64,000 nt of DNA from Venatoribacter cucullus (GTDB lineage Bacteria > Pseudomonadota > Gammaproteobacteria > Pseudomonadales > Oceanobacteraceae). Under the pieces are notes generated by a model, which made no database searches, was not told where the DNA came from, and saw only the letters and a list, made by a program, of their open reading frames with translations. This document shows, piece by piece, positions 46,250 through 52,912 of the stretch (within the stretch, counting starts at the first letter, position 1; each line of letters opens with the position of its first letter). The stretch spans positions 2,420,001 to 2,484,000 of the forward strand of contig NZ_CP046056.1 in assembly GCF_016132445.1 (NCBI RefSeq). Reading direction: 5' to 3'. Position numbers and translations under genes: made by a program.

Positions 46250-47431
46250 ATGCCCAGCCACCCGCTGTTCAGCGATAAAACCATTGCCCTGTCGGCCACT
46301 CTGGCCGCCACCATCGGGCTGGAAGAAGCCGTGCTGTTAACGGTGCTGAACGATGCTGCCAGCCTGCAAAGCCAGGCCTGGGCGCGGCTGGGCAAACAGG
46401 CGCTGCGCCAGCAGCTGCCGTTCTGGGACGATGTTACCATCCGCCGTATTCTGCAAAACCTGCTCGATAAGGGCCTGTTAACCTTAAGCGGGCCGATGTT
46501 TCCCGATGCCGAAGGCCTGATGTTCAGCTTTACCCCACCGGCCGGCCAGCCCCAGGCCAGCGCCCCGGCACCGCAGCCGCGTCCGGCGGTTGCAGAACCC
46601 CGGCCCCGCCCGGCCACGGCAACGCCGATGAACCCGCCGGCAGCACCGCCGGCCAACCTGAAACAACCACTGCCGGAACGCTGGCGCCCCAACACCGAAA
46701 CCCTGCAGCGGCTGGAACAGCACGGCATTCCGGCCAGTTTCAGCTGGAGCCAGCTGGATGCCTTTTTATTGCAGGGCCACGAGCAGGGCGCCAATCGCAA
46801 CGACTGGAACGTGCGCTTTTTCCGCCATGTAAAAAGCCAGTGGGTGTTTGCCCGCAATGATGCCGCGCGTCAGCAACAACGCCTGCAGGGTACGTTCAAC
46901 CCGCAACAGGAAGATGCCCTGCCCATCCGCCACGACTGGCAACCGCACGAAGATGCCCTGCAGATTCTGCAGCGCGCCGGCATTGACCCGCAGTTTATTG
47001 CCGATGCCGTGCCCGAGTTTGTACTCTACTGGGTGGAACGCGGCGATGTGAGCAAAACCTGGAACAGCAAATTTATTCAGCACGTGCGGCAGCAATGGGC
47101 CCGGTTCAGCGCCTCGGCCGAACATTCATCGCTGCCCACCCGCATTACCGATAACTGGCAACCATCGCCGGACTGTTTCGATATTCTGGCCATGGCCCAC
47201 ATTGACCGGCAGTTCGCCGAACAGCGGGTGCCGGAATTTGTGCTGTACTGGCGCGATTCCAACCAGGTGCACAACAGCTGGAACAGCCGCTTTCTGCAAT
47301 ATGTAAAACAACAATGGGGCAAACGTCTGGCCCAGCCGTCAGGAGACACCAATGGACAGCAAGCAACTGCTCAACCGGGTTACACAACAGCTGCAGCAAG
47401 CGTCCAGCGCCTTAAAGACACCAACTGGTGA
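46250..47431 (+). CDS. DnaT-like primosomal protein with three DnaT domains
   Basis: A 393-residue replication protein. Residues about 1-90 look like a winged-helix domain (IGLEEAVLLTVLND, IRRILQNLLDKGLLTL). A proline-rich linker (about 100-150) leads to three copies of the DnaT C-terminal ssDNA-binding domain, near 160-215, 235-290 and 305-365. Copies two and three both show FVLYW followed by WNSKF or WNSRF and a terminal QQW; the first is more diverged (WNVRFFRHVKSQW). E. coli DnaT has one such domain. The last 80 nt overlap the next gene in another frame. A role in loading DnaB during initiation or restart is inferred. Confidence 0.8.
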   Translation: MPSHPLFSDKTIALSATLAATIGLEEAVLLTVLNDAASLQSQAWARLGKQALRQQLPFWDDVTIRRILQNLLDKGLLTLSGPMFPDAEGLMFSFTPPAGQPQASAPAPQPRPAVAEPRPRPATATPMNPPAAPPANLKQPLPERWRPNTETLQRLEQHGIPASFSWSQLDAFLLQGHEQGANRNDWNVRFFRHVKSQWVFARNDAARQQQRLQGTFNPQQEDALPIRHDWQPHEDALQILQRAGIDPQFIADAVPEFVLYWVERGDVSKTWNSKFIQHVRQQWARFSASAEHSSLPTRITDNWQPSPDCFDILAMAHIDRQFAEQRVPEFVLYWRDSNQVHNSWNSRFLQYVKQQWGKRLAQPSGDTNGQQATAQPGYTTAAASVQRLKDTNW

Positions 47432-48011
47432 GGCGGTAAAAGAAGCCACCATTGAACAGAAAGAAGCCATTAACCAGATCTTCGAGCTGTTCCGCTTCAA
47501 CTATCACAACCAGTTTCTGAAGGCTTTTCCCGACCATGACACCATGGTGATGGCCAAGCGCCTGTGGGCGCGGTTGCTGTGCGATTACAGTGGCGCCGTC
47601 ATCATGCGCGCCGCCGAGCGGGCAGTAAAAGAAAGCAGCTGGCTGCCCAATGTGCACGAAGTGCTGGCGCGCTGCGATGTCGCCGATACCTTTGGTCTGC
47701 CCTCCGCGCACGCCGCCTATATGGAAGCCTGCCGCGCGCCGTCGCCGAAAAAAGACTTCGCCTGGAGCCACCCGGCGGTGTATTTCGCCGGCCGCGCCAC
47801 CGACTGGTTTTTCCTTGCCAATACGCCCGAACAACAGGCGTTTCCGGTGTTTCAGCGCAATTATGAGATTCTGCTGCAACGCCTGCAGAACGGCGAAAAC
47901 CTGGAACTGGATATCGCCCCGGCGTTACCGGAAACCGTGGCCGTCAGCCTGCCCCGCGACGAACAGCGCCAGCGCCTGCAAGCCTTGAAGCAGCTGATCG
48001 AACGCCATTAA
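47352..48011 (+). CDS. Phage lambda P-like helicase loader
   Basis: A 219-residue protein resembling replication protein P of lambdoid phages (QIFELFRFNYHNQFLKAFPD, AKRLWARLLCDYSGAVIMRAAERAVKESSWLPNVHEVLARC). Lambda P loads the DnaB helicase. An AGGAG lies just before the ATG, so the 80-nt overlap with the DnaT-like gene is real. No phage structural gene is near, and the neighbours are housekeeping genes, so it looks like a resident chromosomal loader. A DnaC- or DciA-type alternative is not seen in the window. Confidence 0.75.
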   Translation: MDSKQLLNRVTQQLQQASSALKTPTGEAVKEATIEQKEAINQIFELFRFNYHNQFLKAFPDHDTMVMAKRLWARLLCDYSGAVIMRAAERAVKESSWLPNVHEVLARCDVADTFGLPSAHAAYMEACRAPSPKKDFAWSHPAVYFAGRATDWFFLANTPEQQAFPVFQRNYEILLQRLQNGENLELDIAPALPETVAVSLPRDEQRQRLQALKQLIERH

Positions 48012-51523: not shown

Positions 51524-52912
51524 TCAGTATTCGTCGTCGCCGCCTTCATAGCCGCGCGCCAGATTTTCAAACCGGGTGTATTTACCGATAAACGCCAGCC
51601 GGTCAATACCGATGGGGCCGTTACGGTGTTTACCGGTAATAATTTCCGCCACGCCTTTATCGGGGGAGTCTTCGTTATACACTTCGTCGCGGTAAATAAA
51701 CTGAATAATATCGGCGTCCTGCTCGATGGCACCGGATTCCCGCAGGTCAGACATCACCGGGCGTTTATTCGGCCGTTGCTCCAGCGAGCGGTTGAGCTGC
51801 GACAGGGCAATCATCGGACAATTAAATTCTTTGGCGATGGCTTTCAGGGTACGGGAAATTTCCGAAATTTCCTGGGTACGGCCTTCGCTTTTGCCGGATA
51901 CCCGCATTAATTGCAGGTAGTCGACCATGATCATGGCCAGATCATTATTATTTTCACGATACACCTTACGCGCCCGGGCGCGCATTTCCTGCGGCGTTAA
52001 GGCCGGCGTATCGTCAATGTACAGCGGCAGGTCTTTTAATAAATTTACCGCGGCGGATAATTTCGGCCAGTCTTCATCAATTAATTTGCCGGAACGGATA
52101 CGGGTCTGGTCGATCTTGCCAATCGACGACAGCATACGCATCACGATGGATTCCGACGGCATTTCCATACTGAACACCAGGCACGGGCGTTTGGTCGCCA
52201 GCAGCGCATTTTCCACCAGATTCATGGAATAAGTGGTTTTACCCATGGAGGGACGCGCCGCCACAATCACCAGGTCGGCTTTTTGCAGGCCCGAGGTGCG
52301 GGCGTCAATTTCGGTAAAGCCGGTGGTTAAACCCGTTAAGCCATCGGGTTGCTCAAACATCCGCTCAAGGGTTTCGAGGGTGTTTTTCAGAATCGGCCCT
52401 ACCGCCTGCGGGCCGCCGTCTTTGCGGCTGCCTTCAGCGATCAGGGCAATGGCTTTTTCAGCATCGGAAATCAGCGTCAGCGAGCTTTCGCCTTCAGTTT
52501 CGTAGGCGCGCTGCATAATGTCGGTGGCGGCTTCAATCAGGCGCCGCTGCTGCGACCGTTCGCGCACGATTTCGGCGTACGCCGCGCAGTTATCAATGGA
52601 CGGAGTCATGTCCACCAGCCGGCTTAAATATCCAGGCCCGCCGGCTTTTTCCAGTTGCGCGCGTTCTTCCAGCTCTTCGGAAACGGTCACCACATCGATG
52701 GGCTGTTCCTGCGCCACCAGATGCTGAATGGCACGGAAAATCAGCCGGTGATCATGGCGGTAAAAATCATTGTCCTGCAGGGTTTCGGCCACCGTTTCCC
52801 AGGCGCGTTCGTCCAGCATCAGCGAACCCAGTACCGACTGTTCGGCTTCCACCGAATGCGGTGGCGTACGCTGACTGGCGGTCTGTTGATCGGAGTTGTA
52901 ATCGTCGCTCAT
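51524..52912 (-). CDS. dnaB: Replicative DNA helicase DnaB
   Basis: A 462-residue hexameric helicase that unwinds DNA 5' to 3' at the fork. The N-terminal domain (PHSVEAEQSVLGSLMLDERAW) and the RecA-like motor with Walker A ARPSMGKTT, Walker B MIMVDYLQLM and the C-terminal ALSQLNRSLEQRPNKRP are intact. Length is normal and no intein is present. It lies downstream of rplI beyond a terminator, and about 3.5 kb from the DnaT-like/P-like loader genes. Confidence 0.97.
   Translation of the reverse strand: MSDDYNSDQQTASQRTPPHSVEAEQSVLGSLMLDERAWETVAETLQDNDFYRHDHRLIFRAIQHLVAQEQPIDVVTVSEELEERAQLEKAGGPGYLSRLVDMTPSIDNCAAYAEIVRERSQQRRLIEAATDIMQRAYETEGESSLTLISDAEKAIALIAEGSRKDGGPQAVGPILKNTLETLERMFEQPDGLTGLTTGFTEIDARTSGLQKADLVIVAARPSMGKTTYSMNLVENALLATKRPCLVFSMEMPSESIVMRMLSSIGKIDQTRIRSGKLIDEDWPKLSAAVNLLKDLPLYIDDTPALTPQEMRARARKVYRENNNDLAMIMVDYLQLMRVSGKSEGRTQEISEISRTLKAIAKEFNCPMIALSQLNRSLEQRPNKRPVMSDLRESGAIEQDADIIQFIYRDEVYNEDSPDKGVAEIITGKHRNGPIGIDRLAFIGKYTRFENLARGYEGGDDEY

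Follow-up and report, generated by a model that had tools for sequence, protein, structure and literature searches.

The gene pair described here lies in a 64,000-nucleotide stretch of Venatoribacter cucullus DNA (Pseudomonadota, Gammaproteobacteria, Pseudomonadales, Oceanobacteraceae; NCBI RefSeq assembly GCF_016132445.1, contig NZ_CP046056.1, forward-strand positions 2,420,001 to 2,484,000), which we refer to as the window; the genome around it is a single contig of 2.83 Mb and 99.6% complete. The first open reading frame (ORF1) encodes a protein with DnaT domains and the second (ORF2) a relative of the helicase loader P of phage lambda. We take the two to be the DopC/DopE pair of Brezellec (2017). 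A first-pass annotation, made from the sequence alone, had proposed a domesticated phage loader serving the chromosomal replisome. Here, we used profile, structure, and genome surveys and found that the P-like gene and the loader DciA nearly exclude each other across the order and that the DnaT-like partner ends in a conserved [DN]xxW motif also present near the end of lambda O.

A triple-DnaT protein and a lambda P-like loader

ORF1 matches the Pfam DnaT family PF17948 over three stretches (E 3.1e-64, with 213 bits where the cut-off is 25), and no further DnaT domain was found in the genome at E 0.001. Ahead of the repeats stand a stretch rich in proline and an N-terminal block (residues ~15 to 95) that AlphaFold predicts with high confidence as a winged helix, with a middling resemblance to the plasmid Rep initiators 4pql, 4pt7, and 5kbj (VIA Z 7.2 to 7.9). 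The order of winged helix, linker, and three DnaT domains is the one given by the first-pass annotation, and its repeats do fit the DnaT hidden Markov model. Residues 220 to 285 of the model resemble DnaT (4ou6_B; VIA Z 8.0; root mean square deviation [rmsd] 2.6 over 65), and a sequence search of the PDB found DnaT weakly (E 0.011 to 0.034). Foldseek with the whole ORF1 model gave nothing under E 0.13, NCBIfam gave no match, and phrog_6493, a “DnaD-like helicase loader,” matched at 0.0029. The lambda O structure is absent from the fold lists for the ORF1 model, which is neutral either way. Of the residues with which Escherichia coli DnaT binds single-stranded DNA (ssDNA), taken from PMC4132743, the contacting F124, Y127, and W128 are retained in the second and third domains (D2 and D3), K143 is lysine in D2 and arginine in D3, and I150 and G151 fall outside the residue alignment with the window domains.

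The likeness of ORF2 to phage P, also put forward in the first-pass annotation, is borne out by profiles and by predicted fold. The protein matches lambda P (PF06992) at E 1.5e-8 in hmmscan (35.1 bits, cut-off 26), whereas a six-frame search of the whole genome did not report PF06992 at E ≤ 0.001, and it matches the P-like loader family phrog_109 at 2.3e-18. Its model is closest to DnaB-bound lambda P (9oa1_Z; VIA Z 10.0 with 202 residues aligned at rmsd 9.7; Foldseek E 1.9e-5) and also resembles the loader G39P of phage SPP1 (1no1; VIA Z 9.6; rmsd 1.8 over 67); the first unrelated structure in the VIA list, at Z 5.2, falls below these known loaders. Sequence matches in the PDB were weak (a designed protein at 0.03, the SPP1 replisome organizer at 0.13, and one more at 0.86), and the nearest named relatives belong to Thalassolituus, Oceanobacter, and their kin (up to 77% identical). 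Neither ORF matched the DciA domain (PF05258), and in searches up to E 10 neither matched a Pfam AAA family or the N-terminal domain of phage replication protein O. Coordinates are collected in Table 1.

Table 1. Features of the loader locus, in window positions
Feature	Position	Strand	Basis or remark
DnaT-like partner (DopC-like), ORF1, 393 residues	46250..47431	+	ATG at 46250, stop at 47429-47431; start agrees with the conserved start in alignment A2
Winged-helix domain, residues ~15-95	46292..46534	+	Block means in the AlphaFold model mostly 89-96; middling VIA matches (Z 7.2-7.9) to plasmid Rep initiators
Proline-rich linker, residues ~96-138	46535..46663	+	17 prolines in residues 95-144; low predicted local distance difference test (pLDDT) scores
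DnaT domain D1	46664..46849	+	PF17948, 3.7e-12; Q and G in place of E. coli Y127 and W128
DnaT domain D2	46922..47119	+	PF17948, 2.4e-27; F, Y, W, and K aligned with E. coli F124, Y127, W128, and K143
DnaT domain D3	47141..47335	+	PF17948, 3.1e-26; F, Y, W, and R aligned with E. coli F124, Y127, W128, and K143
AGGAG within ORF1, the likely ribosome-binding site for ORF2	47341..47345	+	6 nucleotides before the loader ATG; score 5 in a simple scan
Dual-coded overlap, 80 nucleotides: last codons of ORF1 together with the opening ~26 codons of ORF2	47352..47431	+	Sequence; different frames
DxxW tail, D390-T-N-W393, proposed loader-docking peptide	47417..47428	+	[DN]xxW conserved in relatives; also in lambda O and some phage O-like proteins
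Lambda P-like helicase loader (DopE-like), ORF2, 219 residues	47352..48011	+	PF06992, 1.5e-8; phrog_109, 2.3e-18; lambda P-like predicted fold
dnaB, presumed client helicase	51524..52912	-	PF03796, 1.3e-102; PF00772, 8.8e-36

Distribution of the pair and its relation to DciA

Neither known loader was detected in the genome of V. cucullus: PF05258 gave no match to DciA, and E. coli DnaC as a query gave none (DnaI was not searched separately). The same DnaC query gave weak matches in 6 of 55 relatives. A P-like gene is present in 46 of these 55 relatives and in 33 of 34 genomes of the same genus and family, own genome counted, a spread that is not sporadic; the loader matches in two genomes that belong to one genus (G025:C1:944142-944792 and G033:C5:87619-88269) contain one in-frame TGA each. 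Among 244 genomes sampled from the order, 151 matched the P-like profile and 76 matched DciA (71 of them over the curated cut-off), and only 4 genomes have both, each with a weak P match (E 3e-23 to 9e-7). This near-exclusion reaches 2.6e-37 in a Fisher test that takes genomes as independent and leaves kinship uncorrected. DnaT domains occur in 148 genomes of the sample, every one of which also has a P-like gene.

The first-pass annotation had presented three DnaT domains as a departure from the usual one; the count holds, but three is the usual state of this clade, found in 89 of the 148 genomes, beside one (39), four (11), two (7), and six (2). Among 80 named loci kept from 394 candidates, the ORF upstream of the loader has three DnaT domains in 76, four in 2, and two in 1 (a shorter protein without the winged helix), and in the last it is met by a contig edge; named relatives with the pair include Cellvibrio, Gilvimarinus, Microbulbifer, and Zhongshania. 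In a sample of the class, DnaT domains were found in 8 of 274 genomes (own genome counted), and of five further class-level loci, L173, L174, L175, and L177 carry the tail together with a P-like ORF that overlaps, while L176 has neither. Three of these loci (L173, L174, and L176) come from small genomes of 0.9 to 1.5 Mb that do not belong to the order; each genome has two or three DnaT domains, and two of the three have a P-like ORF in the stretch fetched.

One order genome (G257) has DciA, a single DnaT domain, and a weak P-like match, possibly a prophage pair, and five large genomes of one family (f35: G158, G067, G103, G182, and G131) contain between 3 and 10 P-like matches and as many as 6 DnaT domains, which may come from several prophages. 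A record titled as a Verrucomicrobiaceae bacterium metagenome-assembled genome (L083) holds the whole pair of triple-DnaT protein and loader, which clusters with the pairs of gammaproteobacteria; the record is perhaps a misbinned contig. A DnaT-like domain protein is also encoded on a plasmid of Spartinivicinus ruber (NZ_CP048881.1, 2120-2305).

The setting of the pair in the window is chromosomal. Seven of nine neighboring genes belong to ordinary chromosomal Pfam families (a TRAP solute-binding protein, YjbR, alr, a TonB receptor, GNAT, dnaB, and rplI) and two lack a Pfam match; as the first-pass annotation had stated, none of the nine is phage-like and dnaB lies 3.5 kb from the pair. Nearness to dnaB was dropped as general evidence, since it holds in just 24 of the 80 named loci and in 20 of the 66 whose right flank spans 7 kb or more. 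A search for promoter-like sites around the pair found none. PriA was found in the genome, PriC was not detected, and PriB was not detected either, its best match (23 bits against a cut-off of 72) being most likely another oligonucleotide/oligosaccharide-binding (OB)-fold protein.

The [DN]xxW tail, the gene overlap, and phage relatives

[DN]xxW falls among the final 20 residues of all 116 distinct DnaT-like partners, compared with 18 of the 829 remaining distinct ORFs of at least 250 residues in six-frame translations of the same loci. This background excludes ORFs with DnaT or P, an earlier count of 26 in 915 having contained repeat copies of the DnaT-like protein. The motif recurs in lambda O, whose C-terminus reads LTNTDWIYGVDL (motif tryptophan W293 of 299), and in the O-like protein of phage PAJU2 (NDTSWAVGLEQDLF). 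INPHARED holds 28 records with a P-like match, of which 12 were opened, with lambda in addition; in 6 of 14 phage proteins encoded beside P-like genes, the motif stands at the C-terminus (lambda, PAJU2, SC_8, VW-6S, Cruim01, and contig L133). The O proteins of PAJU2, Tr60, and FBPa42 have an identical C-terminus and were counted once, and the count leaves out the fused FBPa19 protein, PfAn1 (for which no upstream partner was identified), and contigs L134 and L135. In Pseudomonas phage FBPa19 (L163, 1381-2409), O and P form one fused ORF without the O tail and are two genes in close relatives. The limited literature surveyed, as far as its text was accessible, holds no description of a DxxW tail.

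In the window, the two genes overlap in different frames over the 80 nucleotides given in the first-pass annotation, and this arrangement proved to be general. We surveyed 137 pairs (116 distinct), after dropping loci without a DnaT ORF beside the P match and eight repeat fetches, and the phase of the overlap is identical in 136, or 115 of the distinct pairs, with L153 as the exception. Loader starts in relatives were set by a crude ribosome-binding-site rule, on which the length of the overlap depends and its phase does not; with starts so chosen, the overlap measures 60 to 140 nucleotides in 98 of the 116 distinct pairs (median 89), and 40 of 98 loader starts inside the overlap have a ribosome-binding site of at least 4 letters. 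In 113 of the 116, the loader frame runs without a stop through 77 or more nucleotides ahead of the partner stop. Within the overlap of the named loci, the D and W of the tail are invariant in the partner frame, and the loader frame shows mild conservation at an LLNxVTQQL stretch, which lies upstream of the partner D and W codons. Reference pairs overlap far less (lambda O-P by 4 nucleotides, PAJU2 O-P by 1, and E. coli dnaT-dnaC not at all).

Two phage loci come closer. On phage contig L133, an O-like ORF with the tail overlaps a P-like ORF by up to 80 nucleotides. The Halomonas phage QHHSV-1 (KX879752; L159, 1534-2925) has an unannotated frame, at which its record shows a hypothetical gene on the opposite strand, that encodes a weak DnaT domain (E 0.0005) as well as the sequence NDLSWADGM; this frame overlaps the P gene in the same phase as the chromosomal pairs, and its W codon lies ~90 nucleotides after the P start. 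It differs from them in being of a phage, in having one DnaT domain, and in continuing for 110 residues after the motif, where no stop stands. Because the overlaps of QHHSV-1 and L133 are comparable, the long overlap arrangement may be of phage descent.

A scan of viral contigs with the DnaT-like alignment found seven loci, whereas the window DnaT-like protein alone found none; the loader alignment found five. Five of the seven encode a stand-alone protein with two DnaT domains and a DRSWA tail, with D1-like and then D2-like domains in L179 to L182 and D2-like and then D3-like domains in L178. No convincing P-like ORF stands beside these genes in the 5.5 to 7.6 kb fetched, the only match being one of 69 residues on L179 (E 0.025). 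A DNA transposition protein (phrog_296) is encoded on L179 and L181, and a late transcriptional activator on L181, gene content like that of Mu-like phages; L182 has phrog_846 in common with L181, L180 by eye has genes in common with L181, and L178 has a helicase gene and is not assigned to the Mu-like kind. The start of Mu replication requires the host proteins PriA, DnaT, and DnaC. DnaT domains with a tail and without a loader are what one would expect if the tail calls the loader of the host. Among INPHARED records, the whole DnaT-like protein matched 4, with one domain each, and the phage two-DnaT protein matched none; the latter matched one record in a plasmid search. The one inspected among those 4, phage Suso, has a DnaT-domain protein with neither a P-like neighbor nor a DxxW end and is neutral here.

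Origin and role of the pair

Trees of the DnaT domains, which have few columns and weak support, bear on the history of ORF1. In the first tree, D3 formed one group (96) and D2 another (82); with viral domains added, D2 and D3 remained separate (95 each), with viral domains within them. Because D2 and D3 form separate groups, the triplication appears, on these trees, to be old. Proteins with a single DnaT domain are of two kinds, one with a winged helix (group B) and one mostly without (within group A). An independent origin of the group A singles was considered and set aside, as the domain trees group them with D1 of the triple-DnaT proteins and domain loss fits better. In the careful loader tree, from which lambda P and the P of phage P12026 were left out for their very long branches, support was 99/98 for group B, 100/100 for the group A singles, and 88/83 for the triple group.

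The pair type may have been domesticated more than once, with group B (winged helix and one DnaT domain) and the triple-DnaT group A taken from different phages, a history that we consider plausible, if somewhat less likely than not. It would account for the two viral sequences that join group A without group B (98/91), group B standing apart (99/98), in the careful tree of P. QHHSV-1 also joined group B in a quick tree (88), but it leaves that group in the careful one; furthermore, a single clade of all 35 chromosomal loaders is not rejected there (approximately unbiased test, p-AU 0.366), and groups A and B have the tail and the overlap phase in common. On these sequences, one domestication and two are both possible.

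The lack of a DciA or DnaC match in the genome, the wide spread of the P-like gene among relatives, the fit of the repeats to the DnaT model, and the near-exclusion of P-like genes with DciA support the first-pass view of a domesticated phage loader, and we consider it probable that the pair is a chromosomal helicase loader in place of DciA, its role at the replisome being deduced from genomics. ORF2 (DopE) would bind DnaB and open the ring as lambda P does, and ORF1 (DopC) would be the adaptor, with DnaT domains that hold ssDNA, a winged helix that may supply a contact to duplex DNA or to an initiator, and a tail, presumably inherited from O-type initiators of phages, that would bring the loader to the site, whether at oriC, at restarted forks, or at both. 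The three DnaT domains in one chain may represent a preformed, covalently linked version, of fixed length, of the E. coli DnaT filament. PMC13377028 describes C-terminal domains of E. coli DnaT that form an ssDNA-wrapping filament, with four seen, and treats the way in which DnaT calls DnaB-DnaC as an open question; PMC4132743 gives two bases per domain. The tail and the N-terminal helix of the loader are encoded by the same ~90 nucleotides, both halves of the presumed contact thus being dual-coded, and the likely ribosome-binding site of the loader also sits within ORF1.

A further proposal gives the tail a wider history: [DN]xxW would be a docking signal for P-type loaders, inherited from lambda-type O initiators of phages by the chromosomal DopC of a large gammaproteobacterial group, and phages of these hosts, some of them transposable, would copy two DnaT domains with the tail, without a loader, and so divert DopE-DnaB of the host. 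We regard this reading as close to evenly balanced. Consistent with a contact of this kind, PMC6022878 reports that lambda O is inactive without its last five residues, which follow directly on the motif, and that O complementation is blocked by expressing N-terminal P, and it recounts an earlier suggestion that the C-terminal region of O binds P and the N-terminal region of P binds O.

Several observations weigh against these readings. Seven of the 14 phage proteins beside P-like genes lack the tail (ARM81mr, P12026, EBPR1 gp48, L132, L136, L183, and L184), of which EBPR1 gp48 has DSYW 25 residues ahead of its end; L183 and L184, the two remaining loci of the viral scan, each have a single-DnaT protein that overlaps a weakly P-like ORF, so that the tail is not general even there. 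The motif of QHHSV-1, the last of the 14, is internal, 110 residues ahead of the ORF end. According to PMC6022878, lambda O tolerates a C-terminal tag, and the amber mutant Oam29, which makes 294 of the 299 residues and lacks 295 to 299, is inactive; the lost residues lie after the motif, which itself stays. On the protein side, neither D2 nor D3 retains K133, F135, or R146, which take part in ssDNA binding by E. coli DnaT; D1 has lost the aromatic pair with which that protein touches ssDNA and is predicted to bind poorly by itself; and in the ORF1 model the arrangement of domains is uncertain (predicted template modeling score [pTM] 0.37) and the tail has low confidence. On the genomic side, one same-genus genome (G007, 93% complete) has no P-like match, and 21 of the 244 order genomes have neither a P-like gene nor DciA, from which it appears that some loaders were missed.

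A rival reading is a role in restart alone: the DnaT-like protein would serve solely in PriA-dependent restart, DnaA would bring the P-like loader to oriC directly, and the genes would be linked since both feed DnaB loading. In E. coli, DnaT domains mark a restart protein (PMC13377028), and PriA is present in V. cucullus with PriB and PriC undetected. We nevertheless think this unlikely, given that lambda O, which acts at an origin, has the same tail, and that DnaT domains are accompanied by a P-like gene in all 148 genomes. That the tail is a by-product of dual coding, retained for the sake of the loader N-terminus, seems very improbable. It does lie inside the overlap in most chromosomal pairs, and the TGG codon forces a glycine in the other frame; yet lambda O has the tail with an O-P overlap of just 4 nucleotides, the five phage two-DnaT proteins have it with no convincing P-like ORF beside them, and in the named loci it is the DopC frame that is invariant at D and W, the loader frame being mildly conserved apart from residues that the tail forces. 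Least credible of all is a prophage remnant with no role in the host, for which one may cite the phage nature of P-like genes elsewhere and the extra copies in some genomes: it is at odds with nine neighbors free of phage genes, with a P-like gene in 33 of 34 close genomes, and with the exclusion of DciA.

The idea of a domesticated loader is prior art. Brezellec et al. (Genome Biol Evol, 2017, evx111) reportedly described a pair that descends from lambda O and P and is found in bacteria without DciA and DnaC/I, and expected DopE to bring the helicase. The window pair resembles DopC/DopE in being a stable chromosomal pair in a genome in which DciA and DnaC were not detected. The title of that work, on a third type of helicase matchmaker from domesticated lambda genes, is cited in PMC13326638 and PMC6784150, the former, a 2026 paper, listing DopE beside DciA as a loader family. 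PMC5109545 names the Cellvibrionales as without both DciA and DnaC/I, and the named relatives found here include Cellvibrio, Gilvimarinus, Microbulbifer, and Zhongshania. The link from lambda O through DopC to phage mimics by way of the tail, the constant phase of the overlap, and the survey of architectures were not found in the limited literature surveyed, part of it in excerpt.

The pair shares features with two better-known systems and differs from each. Like E. coli DnaT-DnaC, it joins a DnaT ssDNA-binding domain and adjacent adaptor and loader genes (a phage origin of dnaC is argued in PMC5109545); unlike it, the loader is P-like and not AAA+, the partner has three DnaT domains, a winged helix, and a DxxW tail that E. 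coli DnaT lacks, and the genes have a long overlap in place of a 2-nucleotide gap. With lambda O-P it shares the fold of a P-type loader and the C-terminal DxxW of O, and it differs in being chromosomal, in its DnaT domains in place of the lambda O architecture, and in an overlap of ~90 nucleotides against 4.

Helicase loading is essential, and in a large gammaproteobacterial group with many marine members neither of the well-studied bacterial loaders is seen. The tail makes this third type of loader testable, in that one tryptophan should decide whether the adaptor finds its loader, and the single-chain triple DnaT would be a convenient model, of fixed length, for the DnaT filament. With a like peptide at the end of lambda O, the tail of the DnaT-like partner also bears on an old question of lambda replication, namely, how O recruits P.

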